NCBI RefSeq assembly: GCF_010725055.1 | Contig: NZ_BJKB01000026.1 | Location: forward strand, 3,655-43,501 | Reading direction: 5' to 3' | Source of the DNA: Gelidibacter japonicus | GTDB lineage: Bacteria > Bacteroidota > Bacteroidia > Flavobacteriales > Flavobacteriaceae | DNA: 39,847 nt | Shown here: one piece after another, positions 11,972 to 29,047 of the stretch | Position numbering within the stretch: the stretch's first letter is position 1 | How the letters are laid out: each line of letters starts with the position of its first letter | Program-made: the position numbers and the translations under genes | Notes under the pieces: generated by a model | The model's database searches: none | What the model was told of the DNA's origin: nothing | Seen by the model: the letters and a program-made list of their open reading frames with translations, nothing else

Positions 11972-12032
11972 AGTCCTATTCTAATTTGTACTCTGCAAAT
12001 TTCAGGATTAAAAGACTTTAATGTATTATGTT

Positions 12033-12064
12033 ATTTGCTGAATGATTTGTAGAATTTGCTGAAT
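12033..12064. promoter_or_regulatory. 11-bp direct repeat with 21-bp spacing upstream of copA
   Basis: ATTTGCTGAAT occurs at 12033-12043 and again at 12054-12064, two helical turns apart, about 62-93 bp before the copA start. Tandem half-sites two turns apart are the usual layout for AraC-family activators, and an HMA-AraC regulator is encoded at 28292-28858. The repeat is seen; the binding is inference. Confidence 0.4.
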
Positions 12065-12093
12065 TCGGTTCATCTATTGCAAAAGCGTTGTAT

Positions 12094-12276
12094 CTAAACA
12101 GATATAAAATACTTTAGGAACTGTAAGAACAGTACAAAGCAGATTAACAGGATAACAACGATTAGAATACCAATCCAAATTATTTTATCTTTTTTGGTAA
12201 TGCTATTTTTTACAGACGGTACTTTAGTGTTTTTTTTATTTCGTCTATCTCGTCTATTTCGTCTATTTTCTAACAT
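12094..12276 (-). CDS. Tiny basic single-helix membrane protein with ITKKDK motif (copy A)
   Basis: A 60-residue protein with three parts: a very basic N-terminus (MLENRRNRRDRRNKKNTK), the motif ITKKDK just before the membrane, and one helix of about 25 residues (IIWIGILIVVILLICFVLFL). By the positive-inside rule the N-terminus should be cytoplasmic. It shares the basic head, ITKKDK and single helix with copies at 12389-12533 and 28871-29047. The basic head is partly encoded by three 9-bp units (ATYTCGTCT on the + strand, 12238-12264). It lies between the cadmium-type and copper-type ATPase genes. I do not recognise a named family. By analogy with small membrane proteins that bind P-type ATPases (such as KdpF or MgtS) it may act on CopA or CadA; this is inference. 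Confidence 0.72.
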   Translation of the reverse strand: MLENRRNRRDRRNKKNTKVPSVKNSITKKDKIIWIGILIVVILLICFVLFLQFLKYFISV

Positions 12277-12291
12277 AGAATATCATTTTTG

Positions 12292-12375
12292 CTATGAACC
12301 AACCAACCAATCAACCACTTCCACTTCATCTGCTGTAACCCCAAAAATTATATTCTCGCAGTTAATCAATGCTTA
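12292..12375 (-). pseudogene. Remnant containing a near-copy of the cadA 3' end
   Basis: The + strand bases 12319-12340 match 12547-12568 at 20 of 22 positions (both contain TTCCACTTCATCT). The latter encodes the last residues of the P1B-2 ATPase (LQKMKWK); the former in the same frame gives LQQMKWK followed by unrelated residues. So a fragment of an ATPase 3' end seems to sit just before copy A of the tiny membrane protein, as the intact ATPase sits before copy B. A GGTTGATTGGTTGG low-complexity run follows. Probably a footprint of module duplication and decay. Confidence 0.4.
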
Positions 12376-12388
12376 TGAATATTCCCTT

Positions 12389-12533
12389 TTAACACAAAAA
12401 GTATAATAGGATTGCGGCTATTACCACAAAAACTATTGCAAGAACCCCAAAGAACTTATCTTTTTTTTGTGATTTTGTTATTCGATGATTTACTAACCTT
12501 TTTATTTCTTTTATTTCTCTGTTTTTGATACAT
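12389..12533 (-). pseudogene. Tiny basic membrane protein with ITKKDK motif (copy B), frameshifted in an A8 run
   Basis: Begins ATG at 12533, 9 bp after the P1B-2 ATPase stop. In frame it reads MYQKQRNKRNKKVSKSSNNK then ITKKR-stop (25 aa). The mRNA has eight A at the ITKK codons (T-run 12461-12468 on +). Reading it as seven A gives ITKKDKFFGVLAIVFVVIAA and a full 47-residue protein ending LLYFLC, matching copies A and C in basic head, ITKKDK and helix. The span is 145 nt, one more than a whole number of codons. Options are a true pseudogene, a sequencing length error, or transcriptional/ribosomal slippage on the A8 run that restores the long form. Confidence 0.7.
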
Positions 12534-12542
12534 TGTTTTTGA

Positions 12543-14510
12543 TTATTTCCACTTCATCTTCTGCAACCTAACAGCATTTAAGATAGCCAACAAAGCCACT
12601 CCCACATCTGCAAATACAGCTTCCCACATTGTTGCCAGACCGCCTGCTCCCAAAATAAGTACCACAGCTTTTACTCCAAAAGCAAGCGCAATATTTTGAT
12701 ATACACTACGTCTGGTTGAACGTCCTATTTTAATTGCCTTGGCAATTTTGCTTGGTTGGTCTGTTTGGATGATAACGTCTGCGGTCTCAATGGCGACATC
12801 GCTACCTAAACCACCCATTGCAATACCTACATCACTTACTGCCAAAACTGGCGCATCGTTGATGCCATCGCCAATGAACGCCACTTTGTTATCGTTTTCG
12901 GACATTAGTTTTTCGACTTCCTTCAATTTATCTTCTGGAAGCAATCCGCCTTTTGCGGTATCGATGCCCATTTCTTTTGCGACTTGTTGCGTAATGGAAT
13001 CCTTATCGCCTGAAAGCATTATGATTTTGGAAATTCCTGATTCCCTAATTTGCTCAATGGCTTCGTGTGCATCATCCTTTAGCTCGTCTGCAATGATTAC
13101 ATAGCCTGCAAATTTGCCTTCAATGGAAACCATCACGATAGATTCTACAATGTTGTCGGTTTCAGATGGAACTTCGATATTGTTTGAAATCATCAATGGT
13201 TTATTCCCAACCAATACGGTTTTGCCGTTTACTGTTCCCTTTAAGCCTTTTCCTGCTATTTCACTTACTTCGGAAGCTTGAAAATCTTTGCCATCAGCTT
13301 TATATTCCATAATGGCCTTGGCAATGGGATGGGTGGATTGTTCTTCCATCGCTATTAGGTATTTCATCATTTCGGCTTCGCTCAATGACCCATCCCTTAA
13401 AACAATATTTTTTATCTTGAAAACACCTTTGGTCACCGTTCCCGTTTTATCCATAACTACGGTATTTACCTTCGTCATTTCATCCAAATAAGATGCGCCT
13501 TTGAACAGAATACCATTTTTTGAAGCTGCTCCCAATCCACCAAAATAGCCCAACGGAATAGAGATAACCAAAGCACAAGGACAGGAAATAACCAAGAAAA
13601 TCAAGGCTCTATATAACCAATCGCTAAAGACATAATCGTCCACAAAAAAGTAGGGTAGAAATGTCAGGGCAATTGCCAAGAATACCACGATAGGCGTATA
13701 GATTTTTGCAAACTTTCTAATGAACAATTCGGTCTTTGATTTCCGTGCGGTGGCGTTTTGCACCATATCCAAAATTCTTGCAATAGAACTATCCTTAAAT
13801 TCTTTGGTAGTTTCTATTTCAATTACACCGTCCAAGTTTATGCTTCCAGCAAATACTTTTTCTCCTTTTGCAATGGTGTCAGGTTTGCTTTCGCCCGTTA
13901 ATGCTGCGGTATTGAACGAGCCTTTTTCGGACAATAAAATACCATCCAAAGGAATTTTTTCGCCCACACGGACTTGCACCTTTTCGCCAATAGCAACGGT
14001 TTCGGGATTTACAGAAACATAATTGTTGTTTCTATAGACGAGGGCTTCATTAGGTCGTACATCCAGTAATGCCTTGATGCTTCCCTTGGCTTTTTTAACG
14101 GCGGCACTTTGAAACAATTCGCCTACTGCATAAAACAACATTACTGCCACACCTTCGGGATATTCGCCAATGGCGAATGCACCTATGGTTGCGATGGACA
14201 TCAATAAAAACTCGGTAAAGAAATCGCCATTTTTGATGCTTTTCCAACCTTCAACAATAACGGGAAACCCAACGGGAATATAGGCTACAACGTACCAAAT
14301 TATTCGGACCCAACCCGTGAAAAATGGGAAGGCATCGAAAAAATCGACGGCAATACCCGCAATCAGCATTACAAAGCTGAAAATTGCTGGTACATAAACT
14401 TTAAATTTCACTATGCTTTCTGCGCTGCTTTGGTTGTGGGCATCATTGCGCTTGTGAGTATCTGAAGAAGTTTTATTCAAATCTCTTAAATTGACTTTCT
14501 TTTTTTTCAT
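12543..14510 (-). CDS. P1B-2 ATPase, Zn(II)/Cd(II)/Pb(II) exporter (ZntA/CadA type)
   Basis: Exports divalent soft metals from the cytoplasm. There is no N-terminal HMA domain; the protein starts with a Lys-rich tail, some His and Asn, and goes to the membrane at about residue 38. Motifs: actuator TGESKPD, ion site C310-P-C312 (SCPCALVISIPLGYFGGLG), D354-KTGTVT, STHPIAKAI, GDGINDAPVLAVSDVGIAMGG. The last helices show the Lys of FGVKAVVL and the Asp of FADVGVALLAILNA, the K...DxG pair diagnostic of P1B-2. 655 residues fits an HMA-less member. 32 bp after the YceI-like gene; the first of the tiny membrane protein genes follows 9 bp later. Confidence 0.95.
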   Translation of the reverse strand: MKKKKVNLRDLNKTSSDTHKRNDAHNQSSAESIVKFKVYVPAIFSFVMLIAGIAVDFFDAFPFFTGWVRIIWYVVAYIPVGFPVIVEGWKSIKNGDFFTEFLLMSIATIGAFAIGEYPEGVAVMLFYAVGELFQSAAVKKAKGSIKALLDVRPNEALVYRNNNYVSVNPETVAIGEKVQVRVGEKIPLDGILLSEKGSFNTAALTGESKPDTIAKGEKVFAGSINLDGVIEIETTKEFKDSSIARILDMVQNATARKSKTELFIRKFAKIYTPIVVFLAIALTFLPYFFVDDYVFSDWLYRALIFLVISCPCALVISIPLGYFGGLGAASKNGILFKGASYLDEMTKVNTVVMDKTGTVTKGVFKIKNIVLRDGSLSEAEMMKYLIAMEEQSTHPIAKAIMEYKADGKDFQASEVSEIAGKGLKGTVNGKTVLVGNKPLMISNNIEVPSETDNIVESIVMVSIEGKFAGYVIIADELKDDAHEAIEQIRESGISKIIMLSGDKDSITQQVAKEMGIDTAKGGLLPEDKLKEVEKLMSENDNKVAFIGDGINDAPVLAVSDVGIAMGGLGSDVAIETADVIIQTDQPSKIAKAIKIGRSTRRSVYQNIALAFGVKAVVLILGAGGLATMWEAVFADVGVALLAILNAVRLQKMKWK

Positions 14511-14542
14511 TAGTTTGATAATAATTTTATTTTAATTCACAG

Positions 14543-15085
14543 TTATTCCAATCTCAACACCAATTGCGCAAACTGCACTTCTATGGTATCATCGATACCC
14601 TCTATTAAGAAATCCAAACCAGTATTTGAAACCAATAATTGTCCGGTTGCACTTATCAAGCAGGACATACTTACTCCTTGTTCTATATGGGTAATGGTTG
14701 CTTTAAATTGTGATTTAAAGGATTTTCCTTGATAAGTAACATCTATCAGCCAATTAAAGTTGATAGGGTCGTGCCGTTTTGATAAAAAATCCTGTGATGG
14801 AATAGTGCCCGTGAACCGAAGCATCAAAGGGGCTTCCTGCTGTTGTAAAATGGTATTGATTTCAGGAATATCTGTTGATAAAGTCTTAAGGTCGAATACA
14901 CCATTAACCACTTTGGAATCATAATCAAGATATAAGGCCAATTTATGGCTTTCTGCCTTGACGGGTTTAGAGTTAACCAAAGTCATCATCATAATATGAC
15001 CTTCTTCAGTTGTATAAATTTTTTGGGCGTTTACTTTATAATAACTAACCAACAAGATTATTAAAATACAATGTTTAACATTCAT
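14543..15085 (-). CDS. Secreted YceI-like domain protein
   Basis: About 180 residues after choosing the start at 15085 (MNVKHCILIILLVSYYKVNAQ, a good signal peptide; an upstream start at 15154 would bury it). The mature part resembles the YceI beta-barrel plan: KIYTTEEGHI...ESHKLALYLDYDSKVVNGVFDLKTL, ...PLMLRFTGTI..., ...GLDFLIEGIDDTIEVQF. The match is weaker than for the gene at 7722-8309, so I give it only as YceI-like. Encoded directly before the zinc/cadmium ATPase gene with 32 bp between, probably in the same transcript. May bind a metal or lipid in the periplasm; not determined. Confidence 0.6.
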   Translation of the reverse strand: MNVKHCILIILLVSYYKVNAQKIYTTEEGHIMMMTLVNSKPVKAESHKLALYLDYDSKVVNGVFDLKTLSTDIPEINTILQQQEAPLMLRFTGTIPSQDFLSKRHDPINFNWLIDVTYQGKSFKSQFKATITHIEQGVSMSCLISATGQLLVSNTGLDFLIEGIDDTIEVQFAQLVLRLE

Positions 15086-15191
15086 AATATCCATCTTTAA
15101 TTGTATAATTAAAAAATAGCAGCTTCTACTTTTGCTTTTAATGCTATTAATCATTTTGCTTTAAGAAGCATCATAAAAGCTGCCTACTATT

Positions 15192-15211
15192 AATTAAGTT
15201 TTCACTTAATT
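15192..15211. promoter_or_regulatory. Perfect 8-bp inverted repeat with 4-nt loop
   Basis: AATTAAGT-TTTC-ACTTAATT in the 170-bp gap between the 88-aa membrane protein and the YceI-like gene. No T-run follows on either strand, so an operator or mRNA processing hairpin is as likely as a terminator. Confidence 0.35.
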
Positions 15212-15255
15212 TATTTTAAATAAAAAATTTCACTCTTTCACATAACCACTTACCG

Positions 15256-15522
15256 CTATTTATTATCTATATCCTTTTCTCTTTTACCGAAATAATACAT
15301 CAGAGCAACACTTGCACCTAATAGTCCAAACAGAATATTCTCGAAAATTTGATTCCCATTGATATTCACAATTTCAATGAAATTATTTATTAAATATTGC
15401 CACCAATTAATTTCATAATTCTGACTGCTAATCGTGAAAATTGTTATCCCCAAAGGTTGAAGGATAAAAACACCTATGGCAAACCCAATTAGTATGGTAA
15501 TAAGAATATTCTTTTTATTCAT
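15256..15522 (-). CDS. Small two-helix membrane protein, 88 aa, unknown function
   Basis: Two hydrophobic segments are visible: about residues 6-32 (ILITILIGFAIGVFILQPLG) and 62-80 (FENILFGLLGASVALMYYFG), joined by a loop with NYEINWWQYLINN. The C-terminus is charged (KREKDIDNK) and probably cytoplasmic. I do not recognise a family. It lies 24 bp downstream of the SpoIIAA-like gene in the same orientation, so it is probably expressed with the metal cluster. No metal-binding motif (no Cys, no His) is present. Confidence 0.65.
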   Translation of the reverse strand: MNKKNILITILIGFAIGVFILQPLGITIFTISSQNYEINWWQYLINNFIEIVNINGNQIFENILFGLLGASVALMYYFGKREKDIDNK

Positions 15523-15546
15523 CGTCTGTCTTTTACGGAAGTAAGC

Positions 15547-15906
15547 TTACTGGCTCTCAATCCAACTTTTGGCATCTTCCTTTTGGTCTATATTGAAATA
15601 CTTAATTTCGGCGTTGGTAAAAGGCTTCATAAATTGGGTTATCCATTCTTGCCATTTTTTATCTCCTACCATTGCTATTTTTTCATAGTCTCTGGCGTGG
15701 GCCGTATCCATTTTGAGGTCTTCCCATAAACTAGGCAAGTCCCAACCCGTAAAATTGTCCATCTCAAAATACCAACGAACCTTCATCCCCTTGTCCAGTA
15801 TAGCGTGGATAAGTGGATGGATTTTTTCGATGTCTTCTTTTCTCAATTTGCCCGAAGCTTTTGTTGCAACAATATTTTTTTCCTTTAACTCAATTATCTG
15901 TAACAT
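15547..15906 (-). CDS. SpoIIAA-like protein 1
   Basis: 119 residues of the SpoIIAA-like family (STAS-like fold). Visible hallmarks: an opening strand with ...NIVATKASGKLRKEDIEKIHPLI, the aromatic FEMDNFTGWDLPSLWEDLKMD, then KIAMVGDKKWQEWITQFMKPFTNAEIKYF and a C-terminal DAKSWIES. Family members are small soluble proteins of unclear function, often annotated as possible lipid or ligand binders. A second copy (20528-20890) in the same cluster has the same layout (MQNFEGW, VGSVKWQEQFTEALLPF, DAKEWIKK). 23 bp separate it from the 58-aa gene upstream. Its presence in metal operons is context only. Confidence 0.85.
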   Translation of the reverse strand: MLQIIELKEKNIVATKASGKLRKEDIEKIHPLIHAILDKGMKVRWYFEMDNFTGWDLPSLWEDLKMDTAHARDYEKIAMVGDKKWQEWITQFMKPFTNAEIKYFNIDQKEDAKSWIESQ

Positions 15907-15929
15907 TTTATATAGTTTTTAATTAATTA

Positions 15930-16106
15930 TTATCCTTCTAAATCGTAAAACCATTCTTCAGCCATTACAATTGCTTTTTTGATGGCCTTTTCTTTTGAAA
16001 AGTCTTCCTTTTCGATTAATTCTTTCGCAATTTCAATTGCCTTTTTTCTTACCGATGGATTAAGGGTGTCAAGCTCTGCTCTAAATTCTTCAAATGTCCA
16101 GTCCAT
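15930..16106 (-). CDS. Small helical protein, 58 aa, unknown function
   Basis: Start ATG at 16106, stop at 15930. The product begins MDWTFEEFRAELDTLNPSVR and continues as Lys/Glu/Ile-rich amphipathic helices, ending AEEWFYDLEG. No membrane segment, no Cys. It sits between the APC permease (10 bp) and SpoIIAA-like protein 1 (23 bp) in tight same-strand order, which supports it as a real gene. It resembles short Bacteroidota proteins of unknown function found beside transporters; I do not recognise a named family. Confidence 0.75.
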   Translation of the reverse strand: MDWTFEEFRAELDTLNPSVRKKAIEIAKELIEKEDFSKEKAIKKAIVMAEEWFYDLEG

Positions 16107-16116
16107 AAAAAATATA

Positions 16117-17433
16117 TTAGTGGTTAAACAATTCCTTTTCCTTTTCGGGGTCTATATCTTTTTTTTCTCTTTTATCCAAAAAATAATCCAGCAAGATACC
16201 TACTACAATCGCTCCCACAAACGCGGCATAAACTTTCCAATCAAATTGTATGACCAAAGAGAGGCTTATGATTATCGCCAAAATTGGCAGTATCGGAACT
16301 TTCCCAACAGATAAAGGAACTTTAAAGGGCCTGTCTTTATCTGGTGCTCTGAAACGCAATACGATAAGGGCAATGTTCACGGCGACAAAGACGAGCAACG
16401 CACCCAATGACGACATTCCCGCTACGATTTTAATATCGCCCAATAGCATAAAACCCGCAACTGCCGCCATAACCACAATGGTAGTAACCCACGGCACTTT
16501 ATGTGCATTGGTTTTGGTCATAAATTTCGGAAGTTCGCCCACGCTTGCCATTCCAAACAGCAGCCTGCTGATAGAGATAATACCGCTAAAGGCCGCATTG
16601 GCAGTAGCAAAAAGTGCTGCGACCGCCAATGTCACGGGCAACCAACTGTTGAGATTTGATGCCGCAAGTGAAAGTGGCGAATCTACTTTTGCCAGTTCTG
16701 ACGGGTCGGCAATGTTAAGTACCGTAAAAGCTATGAGCAGATAGATAACGGTTGTAAAAACCATTGTCAGTAGAAAGGCACGAGGAATGGTCTTGCCAGA
16801 GTTTTTTACTTCAGAACCCAATGCAGCCATATGCTCAAAACCTGTATAGACAAAAAACAAGGTTGCGGTAGCCGCCAAAGTACCGGAAAAGGATTCAACT
16901 TTAAAAAATTCAGCCTTTGGCGGGCCAGTTTCTGCAAGCCCGACCACAATAAGAATGAACAATCCCAAAAGTTGTATGCTAACCATTATAATATTGGCAG
17001 TAGATGATTTCTTGATTCCCGTAATGCTTATCAATGAAAGAATTATCAATACGCCATAACTTATCAATAGGGAAGGCACACTAAAAAAAGTGTTGAAATA
17101 ACCTGAAAAGGCCAGCAATACAGCGGCTATCGTGGCAGAACTGTGAAAGGCAATTGTCCAGCCAGTGAGAAAGGAAGGAATGTCAATTTTCGGAAACGCT
17201 TTGCGTACAAAAATGAATTCGGCACCTGCATTGGGATAGGTAGAGGATAACTCTGCATAAGACAATGCCGAAACGCTGGCAGCAATTGCAGCGAAAACAA
17301 AACTCAACCAAAGGTCGGTACCTGCTTGTCCAGCTGCTGCGCCTATGACAGTATATATTCCTGCACCCACGATAGTGCCTACTCCATAAAAGGTAAGGCG
17401 AATTGTTCCCAATGATTTTTTTAATTCTGCCAT
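16117..17433 (-). CDS. APC-superfamily amino acid/polyamine permease
   Basis: 438 residues with about 12 membrane helices. The first helix carries GVGTIVGAGIYTVIGAAAGQAG, the unwound substrate-binding motif of APC transporters, followed by ALSYAELSSTYPNAGAEF, a conserved APC stretch. The C-terminus is charged (DKREKKDIDPEKEKE). It probably imports or exchanges an amino acid or cationic amine; the substrate cannot be read. It is unusual as a member of a metal-efflux run: the upstream gene is a Fur-family regulator (81 bp gap holding an inverted repeat) and downstream are the 58-aa and SpoIIAA-like genes. It could supply a metal-chelating amino acid such as His or Cys, or move an amine; inference only. 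Confidence 0.88.
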   Translation of the reverse strand: MAELKKSLGTIRLTFYGVGTIVGAGIYTVIGAAAGQAGTDLWLSFVFAAIAASVSALSYAELSSTYPNAGAEFIFVRKAFPKIDIPSFLTGWTIAFHSSATIAAVLLAFSGYFNTFFSVPSLLISYGVLIILSLISITGIKKSSTANIIMVSIQLLGLFILIVVGLAETGPPKAEFFKVESFSGTLAATATLFFVYTGFEHMAALGSEVKNSGKTIPRAFLLTMVFTTVIYLLIAFTVLNIADPSELAKVDSPLSLAASNLNSWLPVTLAVAALFATANAAFSGIISISRLLFGMASVGELPKFMTKTNAHKVPWVTTIVVMAAVAGFMLLGDIKIVAGMSSLGALLVFVAVNIALIVLRFRAPDKDRPFKVPLSVGKVPILPILAIIISLSLVIQFDWKVYAAFVGAIVVGILLDYFLDKREKKDIDPEKEKELFNH

Positions 17434-17456
17434 AATATTTTTTAAGTTAGAGAAGG

Positions 17457-17514
17457 TGGAAGAAACCTGAACCTGACCATTGGACCCAAGGGTTCAGAAT
17501 TCTGAAACTTCCAT
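17457..17514 (-). promoter_or_regulatory. Inverted-repeat structure between the Fur-family gene and the permease gene
   Basis: CTGAACC (17467-17473) pairs with GGTTCAG (17491-17497), and the outer TGGAAG pairs with CTTCCA close to the Fur-family stop. No T-run follows on the - strand. It may shape transcript stability or attenuation between the regulator and the permease. Confidence 0.35.
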
Positions 17515-17952
17515 CTAATATTTTTGCCTGCATTTTTCACATATTCCCTTTAATATCAGGTTCACATTTCTCACTTCATAATCGTCTGGCAAGCTTTCTT
17601 TCGATATCTTATTCGGTAAACAGATTGTTCTTCTGCAATCGGTACAATGAAAATGCAGATGTAAATCTATACCGTATTTATCTTTGGCGTTTTCATCAGA
17701 AATAGCATATTTTGCCACTCCGACCCCATCATTAATCTGATGAATCAGCCCTTTATCCTCGAAAATCTTGAGATTTCGATAAAATGTCGTTCTGTTTGCT
17801 GTTTTATTGGTTTCGCTCTTTTGAACAAAAGCCTTTTTCAAATCGGAAAAGGACACGGCACTTTGCTTCCTTTTCAGGAACTTGTATATCTTCAACCTCA
17901 TTTGAGTAGGTCGAATACCGTGATTTAATAGTATCTTTTCCGTTTTAGTCAT
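17515..17952 (-). CDS. Fur-family metalloregulator 1 (Zur-like)
   Basis: 145-residue DNA-binding repressor. The N-terminal winged helix contains GIRPTQMRLKIYKFLKRKQ and the recognition region NRTTFYRNLKIFEDKGLIHQI. The C-terminal dimer and metal domain has HLHFHCTDCRRTICLP and KGICEKCRQ, two CxxC pairs for the structural zinc and the HxHxxC sensory region. A Fur-family paralogue is encoded at 20935-21357 with the same plan. It lies 50 bp downstream of the P1B-4 ATPase gene. The zinc sub-type (Zur) is favoured by the CxxC pairs and the zinc-type neighbours, but Fe, Mn or Co sensing is not excluded. Confidence 0.88.
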   Translation of the reverse strand: MTKTEKILLNHGIRPTQMRLKIYKFLKRKQSAVSFSDLKKAFVQKSETNKTANRTTFYRNLKIFEDKGLIHQINDGVGVAKYAISDENAKDKYGIDLHLHFHCTDCRRTICLPNKISKESLPDDYEVRNVNLILKGICEKCRQKY

Positions 17953-18002
17953 TGCAATATTAATTCAAAAGCAAACCCTTTTTTCAAAACATATATTTGA
18001 TG

Positions 18003-20531
18003 CTATTTCTTATAAGCCAAAAGCCTTAACGCATTAAAAACCACAAGTAATGTTGAGCCTTCGTGGATGACCACTGCAATACCGATATTGGCCCAACCCA
18101 TAATGGTCGATGGGATAAGCAATGCCACAATACCGAGGCTTACCCAAAGGTTTTGCTTGATAATTGCCTTTGCCTTCCTGCTCAAGCCTATGGCAAAGGG
18201 CAGGGTTTCCAATTTATCGGCCATTAGGGCAATGTCTGCAGTTTCCAAGGCCACATCACTGCCCGCTGCACCCATTGCGATACCTACTGTGCTGTTTGCC
18301 ATTGCAGGGGCATCGTTCACACCGTCGCCTACCATTGCGACTTTGGATTCCTGTTCTTTTAATTTTTTAATGGCATCTACCTTTTCCTCTGGCAACAGGC
18401 TTCCCCAGGCATCGGTCAACCCAATTTCTTTAGCAACGGCATCGGCAACCTTTTGATTATCCCCGGTTAGCATTATCATCCGCTTGATACCGATTTCCTT
18501 TAATTTTTTCAGTGTTTCCTTGGCCGCTTCCCGTGGGGTGTCCATCAGGGCGATGATACCTATATATTCTTTGTTCCTTCTTATGAGCATCGTAGTATTT
18601 CCACCACCTTCAAGTTCTTTTACTTTATTCGATATATCTTCGGATGGTTTTGCTTCATCGAGGTCTTCGTACAAGTCAAGGTTTCCAATATAGATTTTAT
18701 CCTTGCCCAAAGAAGCTTTGATACCTTTTCCGAGAACTGCTTCCAAATCTGACGCATCGATAATATCAGTACCTTTCAGACGCTCTTTCCCATCCCTTAC
18801 GACGGCTTTGGCCAAAGGGTGGTCGCTCAAGTTTTCAACGGCAACGGCTATCTTTAACAGTTCATTTTCTTCAATATCCCCCAATGGTACTACTTCGGTA
18901 AGTTTGGGCTTGCCTTCGGTAAGCGTGCCTGTTTTATCAAAAGCCAAAGCGGTTATGACCCCTAAATCCTCAAGTGGTCGCCCACCTTTGATGAGCACGC
19001 CGCCACGTGCTGCCCTTGCCACACCGCTCAATACGGCACTTGGTGTTGAAATGGCCAGTGCACAGGGACTTGCAGCTACCAATACCGCCATTGCACGATA
19101 AAAGCTGGCACTAAACGGTTCGTCAATGACCAGAAAGGCAAAGAGTAGGATACCAACCAGTATCAGTACGGATGGCACAAAGTATTTTTCGAACTTATCG
19201 GTCAGCAGTTGCGTGGGGGACTTCTGGGTCTGTGCCTCGTTGACCAATTTGACCAGTCGGGACAGGGTAGAGTCTTTGGCTTCTTTGATTACCTTTATTT
19301 CCAGCGTGTTATTACCGTTGATAGTTCCGGCAAATACCCGATTTTCATCCTTGATATCATCGTCTGCCGAATAGTCCCTGCCTGTATCTTCCACGGGAAG
19401 TTTATCCACGGGTACACTTTCCCCAGTAATAGGGGCCTGGTTTACACTGCTTTTTCCGTTGACCACGACGCCATCTGCGGATATTTTACTATTGGGCTTG
19501 ACCACTATAATATCGCCAATACTCAATTGCTCAATTCCAACTTCTTCGGTCTTGCCATCTTTTTTAAGCAATGCTGTTTTTGGTGCAAGGTCTGCAAGCG
19601 CAGCAATGCTTTTTCTTGCTTTGTTCATTGCGTAATGTTCCAAGGCGTGCCCAAGGCTAAATAAAAACAACAACAGTGCACCTTCTGCCCATTCTCCCAG
19701 AATGGCGGCACCAATGGCAGCGACCAGCATTAAAAAATCAATTTCAAAACCACCCTTGGCCACAGTTTGAACCGCTTCCTTGGCCGTAAAGAAACCACCG
19801 AAAAAGTACGCGCCAATGTACAAAGTAAGACTGACCCAATCCGGGATGGATTCCACATAAGAAAGCCCGAAACCTATCCCGAGAAGTGCCCCACAGATAA
19901 TGGAAAAAATAAGCTCCGTATTTTTACCGAAAACCCCACCGTGGGCGTGCTCTTCTCCTTCCTCGTGGGTCTCGCCCTCCTTGTGCTCGTGGCCCTCTGT
20001 GGAAGTTTGCTCTTTAGTATCTTCCTTCTTTGAACGTTCCTGTTTTTTTTTGGATGCTTCGGTGTAATTATTTTCGTTTGAAGAACTCCGCTTAACCTGA
20101 AGGTCTTCCTTTTCAATCTGTTTACTTATTTCATCAAAATTTGTTTGCTTTTTATCAAACTCAAGGCGCACCATTCCAGAGACCGAAACGGAAGCCTCCA
20201 AAACCCCATTGATTGCCAAAAGACTTTTCTCTATGGAACGTGCCTGTCTTGTATGTCTGATTCCTTTAACCTCTATGAGCAAATGCCCGTATTTTTCGGT
20301 AATCTCGGCACCCGTCTGTTCTGCGAGAGATTGAATGCGGTCTATAGAAATGATATCGGGGTCATAATGAAAACAGAGCTGTGGTGTGTCATCTTCCTTT
20401 GTATCGGCAACGTGTACTTTTTCGATGCCCTCTTTAGCCTGTAATTCTTTTATAAGCCGCTCAACACAAGTATCTTTTTCGTTTGGAACTTGCGGAAGGA
20501 TAACTGGAATTTTTAGTTGTATTTTTTTCAT
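18003..20531 (-). CDS. P1B-4 type heavy-metal ATPase with His-rich N-terminal region
   Basis: 842 residues. The N-terminus holds two ferredoxin-like HMA folds (about residues 1-75 and 80-150) in which the CxxC motifs are lost (RHTRQAR in the second). A Lys/Glu linker and a His/Glu stretch follow (GHEHKEGETHEEGEEHAHGG, about residues 176-195). Core motifs: TGESVPVDK, the ion site S488-P-C490 (ASPCALAISTPSAV), D532-KTGTLTEGK, SDHPLAKAV, GDGVNDAPAMANSTVGIAMG, and near the end H823-EGST. SPC plus HEGxT defines P1B-4 (CoaT/PfeT/CtpD kind), exporting Co, Fe(II), Ni or Zn. The start overlaps the SpoIIAA-like stop as ATGA. The His-rich tail replaces CxxC as the likely metal-binding regulator region. 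Confidence 0.93.
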   Translation of the reverse strand: MKKIQLKIPVILPQVPNEKDTCVERLIKELQAKEGIEKVHVADTKEDDTPQLCFHYDPDIISIDRIQSLAEQTGAEITEKYGHLLIEVKGIRHTRQARSIEKSLLAINGVLEASVSVSGMVRLEFDKKQTNFDEISKQIEKEDLQVKRSSSNENNYTEASKKKQERSKKEDTKEQTSTEGHEHKEGETHEEGEEHAHGGVFGKNTELIFSIICGALLGIGFGLSYVESIPDWVSLTLYIGAYFFGGFFTAKEAVQTVAKGGFEIDFLMLVAAIGAAILGEWAEGALLLFLFSLGHALEHYAMNKARKSIAALADLAPKTALLKKDGKTEEVGIEQLSIGDIIVVKPNSKISADGVVVNGKSSVNQAPITGESVPVDKLPVEDTGRDYSADDDIKDENRVFAGTINGNNTLEIKVIKEAKDSTLSRLVKLVNEAQTQKSPTQLLTDKFEKYFVPSVLILVGILLFAFLVIDEPFSASFYRAMAVLVAASPCALAISTPSAVLSGVARAARGGVLIKGGRPLEDLGVITALAFDKTGTLTEGKPKLTEVVPLGDIEENELLKIAVAVENLSDHPLAKAVVRDGKERLKGTDIIDASDLEAVLGKGIKASLGKDKIYIGNLDLYEDLDEAKPSEDISNKVKELEGGGNTTMLIRRNKEYIGIIALMDTPREAAKETLKKLKEIGIKRMIMLTGDNQKVADAVAKEIGLTDAWGSLLPEEKVDAIKKLKEQESKVAMVGDGVNDAPAMANSTVGIAMGAAGSDVALETADIALMADKLETLPFAIGLSRKAKAIIKQNLWVSLGIVALLIPSTIMGWANIGIAVVIHEGSTLLVVFNALRLLAYKK

Positions 20532-20890: not shown

Positions 20891-20934
20891 TGCTCATTAT
20901 TTATAAATGATGATTGAATTGAAAAACCTAAAAC

Positions 20935-21357: not shown

Positions 21358-21372
21358 TTGTGATAAAGTGTT

Positions 21373-21711: not shown

Positions 21712-21737
21712 ATTATGAATTTTTTAAATTTTTAATC

Positions 21738-21810
21738 GATTTTGAACCGAGCCTGTTTTCTAATTTTTAACTAACCAATTAAGACGATAAACAAACTCGG
21801 AATCAAAATC
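21738..21810. promoter_or_regulatory. Long imperfect inverted repeat between czcB and the PII-like gene
   Basis: Arms 21738-21759 (GATTTTGA..CCGAG...TGTTT) and 21789-21810 (AACAAA.CTCGG..TCAAAATC) pair over most of 22 nt with small bulges around a 29-nt loop. No T-run follows on the - strand. Located in the 115-bp gap where expression of the PII-Fur-ATPase run would separate from czcBA, so it may be an attenuator or an operator pair. Confidence 0.4.
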
Positions 21811-21826
21811 TTTGATTATTATTGAA

Positions 21827-23080: not shown

Positions 23081-23097
23081 TTTTCTTCTTTATTATA

Positions 23098-26000
23098 TTA
23101 TAGATTACCCAACTGATATTGTACCTCAATAGATTGTTGGTTGTATTGATTGATGTATTCCAAATGTGTTTGCTTTATCCTGATGGCACTGTTAAGGATG
23201 GTTATATAGTTGACATAATCTATTTCGCCTTCCTTGGATGCCAATTCTGCGGTGGTTATTTGTTCTTCCGCCAAAAGCAATGCGCCTTCTTCATAATACT
23301 GCAATATTTTCCGCGTTTTTTCAAGGGATTTGAACAATTGCGACACCTGGCTTTCGGTGGTTGCCTTTTGTTCCAAATATTGGTTTTCTGCGACCATTGC
23401 ATCTGCCTTGGCTGCCTTTATCCTCGATTTCTGCGGAAAAAACCATAACGGAATACTAATACCTGCCTGATAGGTATTGAATCCAGAAACATCATCCACT
23501 ACTTGCCTTCCAAACGATAAACTGAATTTCGGTAGGAGTTGCGATTTTTCAACACCCACATTTGCTTTACTTACTTCGGCGTTCTGCAACGCATATTGCA
23601 ATATTGGGTTGTTTGCTACCGAGGTAGAATCCAAATTTGCCATAAAATCCAATGGCTCGTAAAAATCGTTCACCGTTTCAATGCTTTCATCCGTTCCCAA
23701 ATACTGTTTTAAAGCACGTTTGGCAATTTCAATATCATCATAGGCTTGTTGTTTTAATACTTGTATTTGCTGATATTCCGAAGATGCTGCAATAAATTCC
23801 AATTTCCCGGTTTCCCCTGTTTCATAACGCAATTCAGCAGCCTCCCTAAAATTAATATAAACACTATCCAGCTGTTCTGCAAAACGCAACTGTGCCTTGT
23901 AATAATTAATTTGGTCATAGGCTTGCATCACATTGCGCACCAACTGTTGTTCATTGGCCACATAAAACTTTTCTCCCAAGGCAATACGCTCTTTGTAAAA
24001 CTTCGATTTTGAAAATCCTGAAAGCAAATCAATGTTGCCCTGTTGCACACCAATGGTAGTCTGTACTCCGGGAAGATTATTGCCATATTCTTCCTTTCCC
24101 GTAAAAACTTGCGTACTGCCCAAGTCGAAACTTGTGCCTTTCATAGCCTGTTCACGTTCTATAAAGGCTTGACTTTCTTTAAGAGAAGGATAATTCTGTT
24201 TTGCCAAAGCGATGGCCTCATCCACGGTCAAGGTTTTTGGAATTGTTCCATCTGCATTGGTGTCTTGGGCAAAAGCAGTTCCAGAAGCCATCAAACCGCC
24301 AACCATCAATAATACGGTTACAATGTTAGTTGATTTGTTGACATAGCTTATAGCTCCATCGTTATTGTTTCGTTCTTTTCTCGATTCGAGCCAGTAATAA
24401 AGAATAGGAATAACCACCAAGGTCAGAAAGGTTGCCGTAAGCATTCCTCCAATCACTACTGTTGCCAATGGTCGTTGTACTTCGGCACCACCAGAGGTGG
24501 AAACCGCCATTGGGATAAAGCCCATAATTGTTGTAATGGCTGTCAATAAAATTGGACGTAAACGTTCGTGCGTAGCTTCGTATATACGTTTTTTTATATC
24601 TGTCATTCCACTGTCTTTTAGTTCATTGAATTTGTTTATAAGAATCAAGCCGTTTAATACGGCAACTCCGAAGAGTACGATAAACCCGACTCCCGCCGAA
24701 ATACTGAAAGGCATTCCACGAATCCACAAAACGAAAACGCCACCTATGGCTGCCAAAGGTACCGCCATATAGATCATCAAGGCTTGTGAAAATGAATTCA
24801 AAGCAAAGTAAAGCAGAACAAATATTGTTATTAAAACGATTGGGACTACGATCATCAATCGGTCTGACGCACGTTGCAGGTTTTCAAATGACCCTCCGTA
24901 AGTAACATAATATCCCGGTGGCAGTTTCACTTCCGTTTCCAGTTTTTGCTGAATCTCCTCAACCATCGATTTTACATCTCGCCCACGAACATTGACACCA
25001 ACCGAAATACGCCGCGAGGTATTGTCCCTTGAAATCTGCATTGGTCCTGGTTTGTAACTGATGTCCGCGACTTCCTTTAAAGGCACTTGCGCTCCGTTTG
25101 GCAAATCGATATACAAATTCTTAAGGCTGTTGATGTCTTGCCTAAAGTCTTCCGCCAAACGAATGACTACATCAAAGCGTTTTTCGCCCTCAAAAATCAC
25201 ACCTGCGGCTTCTCCTGAAAACGATGCACTCACATAATCATTCAGCTTGTCAACGGTTACTCCGTATTGAGCCATTTTTGCGCGGTTATACACCACGGTC
25301 ATTTGGGGCAAACCACTTGTAGCCTCTACGTTAAGGTCTGCAGCACCCGGAACTTTCCGTATGACCGCAGCAATTTCCTGAACCTTATCTGCCAACACGT
25401 TTAAATCTTCTCCATATAATTTGATGGCTACGTCCTCACGAACGCCAGTCAGCAATTCATTAAATCGAAGTTCAACAGGTTGTGTAAACACAAAGTTTAC
25501 ACCAGGCACTACTGAAATTTTTTCTTGTATTTTTTCTATGAGCTCCTCCTTACTATCTGCGGAAGTCCATTTACTCTTGTCTTTTTCAAGAATAATGTAA
25601 CTATCCGCAATATCCATAGGCATTGGGTCTGTTGGTATTTCGGCCACACCAATCCTTGAAACTACCGTTTTTACTTCTGGAAATTCATTGATTAAATTCT
25701 GAAGTTTTTTTGAAGCCTCAATAGATTCTGTAAGACTGCTCCCTGGTTTTATCAAGGCTTGAAAGGCAATATCGCCTTCATCAAATTTCGGGACAAATTC
25801 TGCTCCCATATTGCTAAATACAAATCCTGCAATTAATAGCAATGAAACCGCTCCTATAACCACACCAGCCCTAAAGCGAAGTGCAAAATTAAGTATGGGT
25901 AGATACGCGCGATTTAAAAAATCCATAATTTTATCGCTTATCCTATCCATCTGGTTTTCAAATTTGGCAAACCAACTATTTTGATTTTTAGCAGGTTTTA

Positions 26001-27513
26001 AAAATAAGGACGACATCATTGGTACGTAGGTAAGGCAAAGAATAATTGCCCCTAAAACGGCAAATCCAAAAGTGAATGCCATAGGTCGAAACATTTTTCC
26101 TTCTACACCTGTCAAAAACAGAATCGGTGTGAAAACAATGAGTACGATTAATTGACCGAAAAAGGCAGAATTCATCATTTTACTTGCAGAATCGTAGGTT
26201 ATTTCATCCATCTCGGATTGTCCTATGATAGCCTTGGATTTTTTCATCCGTTGATGTATGTGGAAAACCGTACCCTCAACTATAATTACCGCACCGTCAA
26301 CAATAATCCCAAAATCAATTGCACCCAATGACATCAGGTTTGCCCAAATGCCAAATTGTTTCATCAAAATAAATGCAAATAATAAGCACAAAGGGATTAT
26401 CGAAGCAGCTATCAATCCTCCACGGAAGCTCCCCAAAAGCAAGACCAAAACAAATATAACAATAAGCGCTCCTTCTATTAGGTTTGTTTTTACGGTACTT
26501 GTGGTTCTTCCTATCAATTCACTTTGACTTAAAAACGTATCTATGTAAACGCCTTCCGGTAAGGATTTTTGGATTTCTACAATGCGCTTTTCAACATTTT
26601 CTATAACGTTACTTGGACTTTCGCCTTTCAGCATCAGTATTTGTCCACCAACAGATTCGTGGCCATCTTGGGTAAACGCACCATATCGCACCTGATTCCC
26701 ATAGCCCACTTTTTCAGCGACATCCCGCACTAAAACAGGGCTTCCGTTTTGTGTGGTTACAACGGTGTTTTCCAAATCTTCAATGCTACGCGCCAAACCT
26801 TCTCCGCGAATGAAATTTGCTTGGTGGTTTTTCTCGATATAAGCACCACCTGTATTGGCATTGTTCACTTTCAGGGCTTCAAAAACCTGATTCATTGTAA
26901 TGCCAAAACTTTTTAATTTATCAGGATTTATGGCCACTTCATATTGTTTCACATACCCTCCAAAAGCATTGACCTCGACGACTCCGGGGACTAATGCCAT
27001 TTGTCGTTTTACAATCCAATCCTGTATGGTACGAAGCTCCATAGCATCGTATTTATCTTCGTAGCCTTCTTTTACTTTTAGGGTGTATTGGTAGATTTCG
27101 CCCAGACCCGTAGTTATTGGTGCCATAAATGGTGTGCCGAAGCCTTCGGGGATTTCTCCAGCAACTTCGGTTAATTTCTCCTGCACCAATTGCCGGGGAA
27201 GATAAGTACCTGCCTCGTCCTTAAAAACAATGGTAACCACAGAAAGACCAAAACGGGAAACGGAACGCAGCTCGATAACGTCAGGAAGGTTTGCCATTGC
27301 CAATTCTACCGGATAGGTAACAAATTGCTCAATGTCTTCAGTACCTAAATTTGGGGCAACTGTAATAACCTGTACTTGGTTGTTGGTAATATCGGGTACA
27401 GAACCCAGATTTATAGTGGCCATAGACCAAATGCCCGTACCTACAAGTGCCACTATAAAGAGCCCAATAATAAACTTGTTATTAATGGAAAATGAAATGA
27501 TTTTGTTAATCAT
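23098..27513 (-). CDS. CzcA-type RND metal pump fused to its CzcC/TolC-type outer-membrane factor
   Basis: 1471 residues carrying two proteins in one chain. Residues 1 to about 1050 form an RND heavy-metal efflux pump (12 helices, two periplasmic loops). Helix 4 carries GAID400FGIIVD406GAVIIVE413, the same Asp/Asp/Glu spacing as the proton-relay residues of Cupriavidus CzcA, favouring Zn/Co/Cd (or Ni) over Cu. After SRKERNNND a hydrophobic segment VTVLLMVGGLMASGTAFAQ (about 1064-1083) looks like a signal peptide with AFA/Q cleavage. The rest (to 1471) is an outer-membrane-factor domain with TLTVDEAIALAKQNYPSLKE and long periplasmic helices. Start at the ATG of MINKIISFSINNKF. Such fusions recur in Bacteroidota. 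Whether the chain is cut by signal peptidase is unknown. Confidence 0.93.
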   Translation of the reverse strand: MINKIISFSINNKFIIGLFIVALVGTGIWSMATINLGSVPDITNNQVQVITVAPNLGTEDIEQFVTYPVELAMANLPDVIELRSVSRFGLSVVTIVFKDEAGTYLPRQLVQEKLTEVAGEIPEGFGTPFMAPITTGLGEIYQYTLKVKEGYEDKYDAMELRTIQDWIVKRQMALVPGVVEVNAFGGYVKQYEVAINPDKLKSFGITMNQVFEALKVNNANTGGAYIEKNHQANFIRGEGLARSIEDLENTVVTTQNGSPVLVRDVAEKVGYGNQVRYGAFTQDGHESVGGQILMLKGESPSNVIENVEKRIVEIQKSLPEGVYIDTFLSQSELIGRTTSTVKTNLIEGALIVIFVLVLLLGSFRGGLIAASIIPLCLLFAFILMKQFGIWANLMSLGAIDFGIIVDGAVIIVEGTVFHIHQRMKKSKAIIGQSEMDEITYDSASKMMNSAFFGQLIVLIVFTPILFLTGVEGKMFRPMAFTFGFAVLGAIILCLTYVPMMSSLFLKPAKNQNSWFAKFENQMDRISDKIMDFLNRAYLPILNFALRFRAGVVIGAVSLLLIAGFVFSNMGAEFVPKFDEGDIAFQALIKPGSSLTESIEASKKLQNLINEFPEVKTVVSRIGVAEIPTDPMPMDIADSYIILEKDKSKWTSADSKEELIEKIQEKISVVPGVNFVFTQPVELRFNELLTGVREDVAIKLYGEDLNVLADKVQEIAAVIRKVPGAADLNVEATSGLPQMTVVYNRAKMAQYGVTVDKLNDYVSASFSGEAAGVIFEGEKRFDVVIRLAEDFRQDINSLKNLYIDLPNGAQVPLKEVADISYKPGPMQISRDNTSRRISVGVNVRGRDVKSMVEEIQQKLETEVKLPPGYYVTYGGSFENLQRASDRLMIVVPIVLITIFVLLYFALNSFSQALMIYMAVPLAAIGGVFVLWIRGMPFSISAGVGFIVLFGVAVLNGLILINKFNELKDSGMTDIKKRIYEATHERLRPILLTAITTIMGFIPMAVSTSGGAEVQRPLATVVIGGMLTATFLTLVVIPILYYWLESRKERNNNDGAISYVNKSTNIVTVLLMVGGLMASGTAFAQDTNADGTIPKTLTVDEAIALAKQNYPSLKESQAFIEREQAMKGTSFDLGSTQVFTGKEEYGNNLPGVQTTIGVQQGNIDLLSGFSKSKFYKERIALGEKFYVANEQQLVRNVMQAYDQINYYKAQLRFAEQLDSVYINFREAAELRYETGETGKLEFIAASSEYQQIQVLKQQAYDDIEIAKRALKQYLGTDESIETVNDFYEPLDFMANLDSTSVANNPILQYALQNAEVSKANVGVEKSQLLPKFSLSFGRQVVDDVSGFNTYQAGISIPLWFFPQKSRIKAAKADAMVAENQYLEQKATTESQVSQLFKSLEKTRKILQYYEEGALLLAEEQITTAELASKEGEIDYVNYITILNSAIRIKQTHLEYINQYNQQSIEVQYQLGNL

Positions 27514-27601
27514 AGAAAAAGTATTAATTCAGTTTAAACATCGCAATGCAAAGAGATGCAATGCGTTTATGATGCGATACTTACTTTTAAAAGCATCACG
27601 G

Positions 27602-27619
27602 TAGGATATAGCTATCCTA
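27602..27619. promoter_or_regulatory. 7-bp perfect inverted repeat upstream of the pump gene
   Basis: TAGGATA-TAGC-TATCCTA in the 117-bp gap between the small secreted protein gene and czcA. On the - strand a T-run comes before, not after, the stem, so it is not an intrinsic terminator for that strand. Candidate operator or processing hairpin. Confidence 0.35.
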
Positions 27620-27630
27620 AAAAAACTGAA

Positions 27631-28026
27631 TTATACTTTAGGGGGTTGGAAAAGCGATTCCAGATATCTGGAAGTGAAGTTTACTTTATGTAAGTTAAAC
27701 TGTTTTTTCTCTTCAAACTTTAGTCGATTGGTTAAAGCCGAATTGTTGTTCGCAATAATTAATACTAAAGGGTGACAACATTGATGATGGGAATGGACTG
27801 GTGTATTCTCCTTATCTGGGTTATTATGATGCCCTTCATTTTTTGCATCATTGTCAATGTAATCTTCAACTACATATTCAAGGAAAGAGTCTCCATAAAC
27901 TTTATGGTCTTGATAATGGGTAATAATGCTTGAAATTTCTTTAATTGGTCCACAAAAGTCCATATCAATGCTAATTCCCTGAAAAAAGAATAAAATTGAC
28001 ATTGATATGGAAAAGAATATTTTCAT
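27631..28026 (-). CDS. Small secreted His/Cys-rich protein preceding the RND pump
   Basis: 131 residues from the ATG at 28026 (MKIFFSISMSILFFFQG, a signal peptide). A TTG start 12 bp upstream is less likely because a TAnnTTTG promoter element overlaps it. The middle is His-rich (EGHHNNPDKENTPVHSHHQCCHP), with paired Cys next to His, a likely metal site in the periplasm. It ends YLESLFQPPKV; small secreted proteins ending in a QPP motif are common just before RND metal pumps in Bacteroidota. No enzymatic motif. Likely the first gene of the czc transcript and possibly a periplasmic metal binder or sensor; exact function unknown. Confidence 0.65.
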   Translation of the reverse strand: MKIFFSISMSILFFFQGISIDMDFCGPIKEISSIITHYQDHKVYGDSFLEYVVEDYIDNDAKNEGHHNNPDKENTPVHSHHQCCHPLVLIIANNNSALTNRLKFEEKKQFNLHKVNFTSRYLESLFQPPKV

Positions 28027-28035
28027 AAATTTTGA

Positions 28036-28043
28036 CAAAGATA
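28036..28043 (-). promoter_or_regulatory. Bacteroidota -7 promoter element (TATCTTTG) for the czc transcript
   Basis: The - strand reads TATCTTTG, an exact match to the Bacteroidota -7 consensus TAnnTTTG, 10 bp before the ATG at 28026. Transcription would begin within a few bases of that ATG, giving a very short leader. The -33 region carries a palindrome instead of a clear TTTG. Confidence 0.5.
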
Positions 28044-28055
28044 CAAATTAATCGA

Positions 28056-28070
28056 TGCACAGGTTGTGCA
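28056..28070. promoter_or_regulatory. TGCACA-GGT-TGTGCA palindrome, probable operator
   Basis: A perfect 15-bp palindrome with 6-bp arms, 12 bp upstream of the TATCTTTG element and so across the expected -33 region of the czc promoter. Binding of a dimeric regulator here would block or guide RNA polymerase. Candidates are the Fur-family proteins of this locus or the HMA-AraC protein; not decided by sequence. Confidence 0.5.
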
Positions 28071-28085
28071 AAGATTATTCAGATG

Positions 28086-28295
28086 TTAGCAACAATATTT
28101 ATTTTCTTGAATTGGTGGACAAGGAACTGTTCCATAAGAACAAAACACACAACAATCTCCATCATAAGGCTTCAAGACTGTTTTACAATTCTCACACTCG
28201 TAAAAGAATTGACAAGCGTTTGTTGGCATCTCTTCTACTTTTTTGTGTCCGCAGTTTGGACAGGTAATCTCTGATTTTAATTGAATTTTCATCAA
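28086..28295 (-). CDS. GDCCVxC-domain protein (Cys form)
   Basis: 69 residues with ten cysteines. The first part is zinc-ribbon-like (ITCPNCGHKKVEEMP and YECENCKTVLKP); the second carries the invariant GDCCVFCSYGTVPCPP and the protein ends NKYCC. This family is known as 'GDCCVxC domain-containing (seleno)protein', with selenocysteine replacing a Cys in some bacteria and frequent placement near mercury or copper genes. Here all positions are Cys. The start overlaps the stop of the HMA-AraC gene by 4 bp (ATGA), so translation is coupled. Probable cytoplasmic metal or thiol chemistry; the reaction is unknown. Confidence 0.85.
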   Translation of the reverse strand: MMKIQLKSEITCPNCGHKKVEEMPTNACQFFYECENCKTVLKPYDGDCCVFCSYGTVPCPPIQENKYCC

Positions 28296-28858
28296 ATCTC
28301 ATCTAATGACTTACGGTTTTTGTCAATTGCTTTTTTAAACTGTGAAGGTGTCATTCCTGTAACTTTTTTAAATTGGTTACTCAAATAGGCCACACTACTG
28401 TAATTCATTTTAAAGGCTATTTCACTCAAAGTTAATTCATCATAAACTATTAGTTCCTTGACACGTTCAATTTTTTGGTTGATGATGTATTGCTCAAACG
28501 TGATACTTTCTACCGATGAGAATAGAGAACTTAAATATTTATAATCAAGATGAATATTCTCGCTTATATAATCTGCCCATTTAAAATCCAGCCCCTCGGA
28601 AGAATGATGAACTTTATCTACAACTAATGTTTTCATCTGTTCAATAAGTTGACTTTTACGGTCGTCAATCAAACTAAATCCTGAGTTTTGAAGCGCTTTG
28701 CAAAGACCGTCCTTGATATTTGCACTTAATGCTGAAACCAATTTAACCTCCCCCAATTTGATAGAAACATACGGTATTTCAAGTTGTTCCAAAATATTGG
28801 ATACTGCCGAGATACATCTAGGGCAGACCATATTTTTAATATGGATAATCTCATTCAT
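28292..28858 (-). CDS. HMA-AraC fusion transcriptional regulator (probable copper sensor)
   Basis: 188 residues. The N-terminal half looks like an HMA domain: IIHIKNMVCPRCISAVSNILEQL with a CxxC pair (C12, C15), then two strand segments and NSGFSL. The C-terminal half is an AraC DNA-binding domain with two helix-turn-helix units: ITFEQYIINQKIERVKELI and LTLSEIAFKMNYSSVAYLSNQFKKVTGMTPSQFKK. A metal-binding input domain fused to AraC output suggests direct sensing of Cu(I) and activation of copper genes. It overlaps the GDCCVxC gene and lies 12 bp after the tiny membrane protein gene (copy C). Cu is favoured by the CusB and CopA neighbours. Confidence 0.86.
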   Translation of the reverse strand: MNEIIHIKNMVCPRCISAVSNILEQLEIPYVSIKLGEVKLVSALSANIKDGLCKALQNSGFSLIDDRKSQLIEQMKTLVVDKVHHSSEGLDFKWADYISENIHLDYKYLSSLFSSVESITFEQYIINQKIERVKELIVYDELTLSEIAFKMNYSSVAYLSNQFKKVTGMTPSQFKKAIDKNRKSLDEI

Positions 28859-28870
28859 ATAATACTCGTT

Positions 28871-29047
28871 TCAAAATAACGTTAATCCTGATTTGTATAA
28901 AGAATAGTAAACAGCAGCTATTGCAGTAACCACAAAAATCAATACTATCACAACTAAAGCTACAATTTTATCTTTTTTTGTAATATCACTTTTGGGCTGA
29001 TGCTTTTTCCTTTCATTTTTTCTTCTATTTCTCCTGCTTTCACTCAT
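28871..29047 (-). CDS. Tiny basic single-helix membrane protein with ITKKDK motif (copy C)
   Basis: 58 residues from the ATG at 29047 (MSESRRNRRKNERKKHQPK); an upstream in-frame ATG at 29071 is possible. Basic head, ITKKDK, then a membrane helix (IVALVVIVLIFVVTAIAAVYY) and a short tail. It matches the copies at 12094-12276 and 12389-12533 in order and motif. It lies between cusB (73 bp) and the HMA-AraC regulator (12 bp), all on the same strand. No Cys or Met-rich metal site is seen, so a structural or regulatory interaction with a membrane transporter is more likely than metal binding. Function not known. Confidence 0.75.
   Translation of the reverse strand: MSESRRNRRKNERKKHQPKSDITKKDKIVALVVIVLIFVVTAIAAVYYSLYKSGLTLF

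Follow-up and report, generated by a model that had tools for sequence, protein, structure and literature searches.

How does one kind of tiny membrane protein come to stand beside several different metal-efflux genes, and what might it do there? The question is raised by a 39,847-nucleotide stretch of the Gelidibacter japonicus genome (contig NZ_BJKB01000026.1, positions 3,655 to 43,501 of the forward strand), hereafter the window. A preliminary description of the window had noted three small basic proteins with the motif ITKKDK and one transmembrane helix, called copies 1 to 3 here, which lie next to genes for metal ATPases, a CusB protein and an AraC-family regulator. Judged by their sequences, copies 1 and 3 belong to one real family. 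As to function, our answer is tentative: with a probability of roughly 0.4, we take the proteins to be optional single-pass accessory factors of flavobacterial metal-efflux operons, each tuning a pump.

The known small regulators of transporters come mostly from Escherichia coli and Salmonella and act on one or two pumps each, as far as the accessible part of PMC10710835 goes. Here, one family that is unnamed in the searched libraries accompanies pumps of several classes as well as a regulator in marine flavobacteria. Relatives have it intact, decayed or not at all, and deletion could show whether it forms a post-translational layer of Zn, Cd and Cu efflux.

A family of small basic membrane proteins

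Copy 1 is assigned to type A, copy 2 to type B and copy 3 to type C. Profiles of single types, made without the rows of the window, find the window copy of the other type: the type A profile recovers copy 3 with an expectation value (E) of 2.7e-12, and the type C profile recovers copy 1 with E 2.2e-10. The corresponding scores are 41.6 bits for copy 3 and 35.3 bits for copy 1, compared to maxima of 25.2 and 27.8 bits, respectively, in 2000 shuffles that keep the composition of head and helix, the margin being smaller for copy 1. As the real scores stand above all 2000 shuffles each way, composition alone is ruled out as the cause of the similarity, and the generic basic juxtamembrane composition that the preliminary description had named as a possible explanation does not account for the motif. 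An earlier shuffle test, with 56.4 against 29.9 bits, was partly circular, the real rows having trained the profile. In a scan of the window with the family hidden Markov model, whose profile includes the window rows, copy 1 is found with E 3.7e-22 and copy 3 with E 5.2e-28.

For copies 1 and 3, nothing reaches the Pfam or NCBIfam cut-off. The 31 representatives (under 80% identity) have no credible match, their best E values being 0.00085 (Pfam), 0.00025 (NCBIfam) and 0.0052 (PHROGs). No credible match was obtained in a PDB search with the family, no known small-subunit family is among the Pfam, NCBIfam and PDB matches listed, a plasmid search gave no matches, and no description of the family was found in open PMC papers. 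The earlier claim that the family is unnamed is borne out in Pfam, NCBIfam, PHROGs and PDB.

A first search with copy 3 gave matches with E ≤ 0.01 in 8 of 98 related genomes, and a 14-row profile gave matches with E ≤ 1e-3 in 57 of 397 genomes of the same taxonomic family. The first set consists of the places with E below 1e-10 together with three from the copy 3 search, i.e. 56 regions with flanks of about 9 kb, or less where a contig ended sooner. Together with the window, it comprises 71 frames with E < 1e-12, spread over 44 genomes (42 from the sample of 397); these frames are the members counted below. It is important to note that start codons were placed at a methionine near the basic head, and that the conserved start is partly due to this choice. 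Outside the counts are 24 weak rows (E above 1e-10), namely two from copy 2, two contig-end pieces, 11 fetched rows and nine others. Among the fetched rows, L238 to L242 look like divergent members (L238 and L239 directly after a P1B-2 gene, L242 near an adaptor gene), L243 and L244 are broken copies, L246 is uncertain, L245 and L247 are chance matches in long frames, and L248 has no match with a better profile.

The 31 representatives are 49 to 63 amino acids (aa) long. An N-terminal head of 25–32 residues with a net charge of +6 to +13 is followed by a single hydrophobic helix, with a mean hydropathy of 2.57–3.56 for the best 19-mer, and by a tail of 2–16 residues; as looked for in a small transporter regulator, the proteins are under 65 aa and have one transmembrane helix. 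The polybasic head is conserved, and no metal ligand is: Cys occurs in 5 and His in 17 of the 31, with 12 of those 17 having a His in the last eight residues. An AlphaFold model has a short basic helix (3–15) and a long helix (24–52), with a mean predicted local distance difference test score of 83.5 and a predicted template modelling score of 0.43.

The median ratio of nonsynonymous to synonymous substitution rates (dN/dS) is 0.29 for type A, 0.32 for type B and 0.22 for type C, calculated over 47, 42 and 256 pairs, respectively, with at least 4 synonymous differences and a synonymous divergence (pS) of up to 0.6. These medians of 0.22–0.32 support both translation and function, and the family is shown to be under purifying selection.

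Two lineages and their places in metal operons

The neighbourhoods were examined with a metal panel made of window proteins (P-type ATPase, CusA, CusB-like protein, AraC, multicopper oxidase and TolC-like protein); the gene caller skips genes under 90 aa, and many loci are near-copies. A panel gene lies within 5 kb of 66 of the 71 members, and of 65 of 65 frames in the named set introduced below. The link to metal genes that had been proposed holds, and the homologues are not scattered away from such genes. The profile search of flavobacterial genomes suggested in the preliminary description also bears on the ATPases: a P-type ATPase is found within 5 kb of 49 and within 2 kb of 41 of the 71 members, while the 272 P-type ATPases in about 167 Mb (44 genomes) put at most about 2.0% of positions within 5 kb by chance. 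With near-copies removed, a panel gene is within 5 kb of 28 and a P-type ATPase of 20 of the 31 representatives. The gene is thus linked to a transporter, as is expected for a small transporter regulator. Furthermore, the nearest upstream gene of at least 90 aa is co-oriented in all 69 members having one, and the downstream one in 62 of 71.

Two arrangements on the same strand dominate. In 27 of the 71 members a P1B-2 ATPase gene lies within 400 nt upstream, and in 26 a CusB-like adaptor gene is within 300 nt upstream and an AraC gene within 700 nt downstream; four more have the AraC gene without the adaptor. The other 14 have neither the P1B-2 nor the AraC context, and they include two contig-end cases and three with P1B-2 at 1.0–1.4 kb upstream. 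Five members are without a panel gene within 5 kb (L053, L089, L090, L091 and L094). L053 is a type A copy cut by the contig end, and L089 is followed by genes for a DtxR-like regulator and a ZIP transporter. Both L089 and L090 have an ATPase match at 5.5 kb upstream, and in L091 the small gene comes directly after that of a universal stress protein, with a Na/Ca exchanger at a greater distance upstream.

A tree of 56 rows and 58 columns, with 17 of 53 inner branches left open and long branches flagged, contains a branch with support 99/94 that separates a 27-row half (25 with adaptor/AraC context, two other) from a 29-row half (22 with P1B-2, seven other), in which types A and B are subgroups. 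Context changes 7 times on this tree, compared to 24.1 times when shuffled. There are two lineages, each mostly keeping its own operon position.

A second set, called the named set, was obtained by scanning the genome contigs of 84,980 species with the type C rows, which yielded 64 loci from Zunongwangia, Leeuwenhoekiella, Galbibacter, Aequorivita, Aquimarina, Winogradskyella, Mesonia and other genera. With its type C query, this set is biased to one operon; common descent explains part of its agreement in context, and it shares many genomes with the first set. The adaptor is upstream in 57 and AraC downstream in 61 of its 65 frames. Membranihabitans maritimus (Saprospiraceae) and a metagenome-assembled genome titled Cytophagaceae have copies with 90% identity to copy 3. 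This suggests recent transfer in the first case and, in the second, either the same or a binning error. In a sample of the phylum, 4 of 395 genomes have matches, all of them in the same family, the share of the 395 outside that family not being given.

Some further neighbours were seen along the way. An RteC gene (PF09357) follows the type A/B copies at L049 (9604-10455), and RteC-like genes, recognised by start or length only, are present also in L050 to L052, L067 and L102; metal cargo seems here to adjoin conjugative-transposon genes. A divergent type D is found at L222 (7923-8180) and L061 (4001-4219), with a tail ending in HxH and one gene upstream of CusA.

Proposed pump tuning and its alternatives

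If the small proteins are accessory factors, the basic head would, by the positive-inside rule, lie in the cytoplasm and the helix in the inner membrane. The helix would dock on an efflux membrane protein from the same operon, i.e. P1B-2, SPC-type P1B, CDF or CusA, and type C on the Cus complex or CopA, both the docking and the molecular partner being putative. Once docked, the protein would tune the stability or activity of the pump, in the manner of MgtS and MgtU with the Mg P-type ATPases and of AcrZ with AcrB. A modulator is favoured over a subunit because the presence of the gene is patchy and spread over pump classes.

According to the accessible part of PMC10710835, MgtS and MgtU shield MgtA and MgtB, respectively, from degradation by FtsH, and AcrZ and WatS1 are small modulators of RND pumps. 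MgtS, MgtU and MgtR are, as this family is, tiny membrane proteins linked to P-type ATPases. The present family differs from these three in its 25–32-residue polybasic head and in its several transporter classes. No credible library match speaks for kinship with them, and the PDB regulatory peptide 2mc7, which we take to be MgtR, is matched at E 1.4, i.e. at chance level. The likeness to AcrZ and WatS1 lies in a small protein accompanying an RND pump, types C and D being found in CusB/CusA-type clusters; in this case, however, there is no credible library or PDB match, and P1B ATPases are also neighbours.

Several observations weigh against the pump-tuning proposal. The reverse link, from ATPases to the small gene, is weak. 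Across 199 genomes, 83 P1B-2 orthologues were listed (E ≤ 1e-150), of which eight were seen with the gene downstream, namely those of the window, G203, G056, G139, G119 and G100:C5, and those of G116 and G176 with divergent copies. The downstream stretch inspected was about 1.5 kb for 30 orthologues and about 0.9 kb for 50; in these 50 regions no small gene was found by the profile or by a search for basic single-helix open reading frames (ORFs), procedures which both recover all 8 known positives, and a case similar to the three carriers with the gene 1.0–1.4 kb away would escape. Of the 65 frames in the named set, 29 have a P-type ATPase within 5 kb. The ATPase link of the preliminary description survives in that one half of the family follows P1B-2, but not as a general link. 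The transporter neighbours vary (P1B, CDF and RND/adaptor genes, with a ZIP gene nearby), which is odd for a specific docking partner, and the type C gene goes with the AraC regulator no less closely than with any transporter. In addition, copy 2 and some relatives are decayed, and single-pair dN/dS values reach 0.50 (type A), 0.70 (type B) and 1.04 (type C).

KdpF, a regular component of the KdpFABC complex, is likewise a small membrane protein whose gene shares an operon with that of a P-type ATPase. For the present family, however, an obligate subunit of the KdpF kind is ruled out, since most P1B-2 orthologues are not seen with the gene (8 of 83).

A broader version, which we find rather unlikely, would make the family a shared adaptor for P1B-2, SPC-type P1B, CDF and CusA/CusB pumps as well as for the AraC-family metal regulator, with lineages each fitted to one operon position. 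If true, such an adaptor would constitute a common post-translational metal-efflux layer in marine Bacteroidota.

The AraC link of type C provides a serious rival to docking on a pump. Type C might hold the AraC regulator that follows at the membrane or act as its anti-activator, with metals releasing or recruiting the regulator, and types A and B might act similarly on other regulators. The AraC gene usually comes within about 40 nt after the type C gene, and the small gene is just upstream in 16 of 16 regulator orthologues with at least 69% identity, compared to 0 of the next 15 AraC loci, at 46–56% identity. Where the two neighbours are separated, AraC is kept without the adaptor five times and the reverse occurs once in the named set, with 4 versus 0 in the first set. 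These separated cases are, however, few, and they include near-copies and genomes common to both sets. Moreover, such a regulator is absent from the 700 nt downstream of the 27 members after P1B-2, of the two type D copies and of the CDF-linked copy, and as an account of the family we consider the tether unlikely.

Quite unlikely, in our judgement, is a general helper at the membrane surface, whose head would bind anionic lipid or ribosomes and aid the insertion of large pumps, the linkage then reflecting dosage. It would resemble RAMP4 or YqjD. The variety of neighbouring transporters fits this idea, and so does the conservation of the polybasic head rather than of a metal ligand, but such a helper would have no need of the separate operon positions of the two lineages, and RAMP4 itself is matched only at E 1.6.

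A cargo hitchhiker or small membrane toxin of metal islands, having no metal-handling role, is very unlikely. That several type A/B copies adjoin an RteC-like gene, that copy 2 and two relatives are broken and that the distribution is patchy would all suit it, while the co-oriented operon positions in both lineages and the purifying selection would not. A translational leader or sensor of the CutF kind, where translating the small ORF would govern the gene that follows, is highly improbable: the gaps to the downstream AraC gene are short and the small ORF is close to metal genes, as CutF/DUF2946-like ORFs upstream of metal genes are in the accessible part of PMC9973294, but none of the 56 distinct frames has the Cu-binding CxxxC or a PP within its last 15 residues (two have any proline in the last eight), and the gene of at least 90 aa that comes after a type A or B copy varies and begins 24 to about 515 nt away.

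The window and the decay of copy 2

The coordinates given for the three copies in the preliminary description are correct, and all lie on the minus strand, which had not been stated. Only two of them are intact, however, copy 2 being a pseudogene that stops at ITKKR*. The frame noted earlier (12389-12533) is closed, and its span of 145 nt is not a multiple of 3. Compared to four intact relatives, copy 2 has an extra base in an A-run and has lost a base further on; its head, helix and KGNIHKH tail are still recognisable, each in a separate frame. Elsewhere, 14 type B copies have open frames, two others run into contig ends, and L061 holds a remnant. Programmed slippage at the A-run is unlikely, because the second indel also shifts the tail and the relatives are open. 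Partial type B copies in G344 and G364 were considered as further frameshifts, which is ruled out as they end at contig ends.

Between copy 2 and copy 1 there is a stretch, LQQMKWKW, which is identical in L066, similar in L049, L050 and L052, and not present in L067. Its likeness to the end of the P1B-2 ATPase, LQKMKWK, suggests a tandem duplication of the 3′ end of the ATPase gene together with the small gene; with eight codons this is suggestive only. In L080 and in the second copy of L077, a B-like head is joined to an A-like tail at TTKKDK, as recombination between copies would be expected to give.

Table 1. Small-protein genes and their surroundings in the window.
Feature	Coordinates	Strand	Basis or remark
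CopA-like P1B-1 ATPase	9713..11971	-	Pfam HMA and E1-E2_ATPase; P1B-1 class from motif
Copy 1 (type A), intact 60-aa basic single-helix protein	12094..12276	-	open frame
LQQMKWKW stretch between copy 2 and copy 1	12315..12338	-	resembles 3′ end of P1B-2 gene
Copy 2 (type B), pseudogene, +1 base / -1 base	12366..12533	-	comparison with relatives
P1B-2-type ATPase (CPCALVISI)	12543..14510	-	Pfam E1-E2_ATPase; P1B-2 class from motif
CusA-like RND pump, C-terminal outer-membrane efflux domain	23098..27513	-	Pfam ACR_tran and OEP
131-aa protein, signal-like start	27631..28026	-	HSHHQCCHP; end LFQPPKV
GDCCVxC domain (seleno)protein	28086..28292	-	NF041374, E 3.6e-31
AraC-family regulator, HMA-like N terminus	28292..28858	-	Pfam HTH_18 and HTH_AraC
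Copy 3 (type C), intact 58-aa basic single-helix protein	28871..29047	-	open frame
CusB-like membrane fusion protein with HMBD and DUF3347	29121..30905	-	domain matches

The P1B-2 ATPase gene is upstream of copy 2, with 9 nt from its stop to the small gene, and the CopA-like gene lies 122 nt downstream of copy 1; the P1B-1 and P1B-2 labels of these ATPases are presumed from motifs. Scanned for promoters and terminators, the region 11900-14700 showed no excess over shuffles. Around copy 3, the CusB-like gene is 73 nt upstream and the AraC-family gene 12 nt downstream, and the CusA-like pump gene, which has ACR_tran and OEP in one protein, shares the strand and the cluster. The neighbours named in the preliminary description are all found, but the regulator described there as an HMA-AraC protein has no Pfam match for HMA, and its N terminus has a weak CopZ match (E 0.00082).

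Two other ORFs of the Cus cluster deserve mention. The 131-aa protein, encoded just upstream of CusA, has a weak NCBIfam HYC_CC_PP match (E 0.0021), which is under the cut-off. Short PP-ending proteins are found also beside CusA in L222 and after P1B-2 in L143, L145, L148, L160 and L164, and they recall the CutF-type translational copper sensors described in the accessible part of PMC9973294. Between this PP-ending ORF and the AraC regulator lies the gene of the GDCCVxC domain protein.
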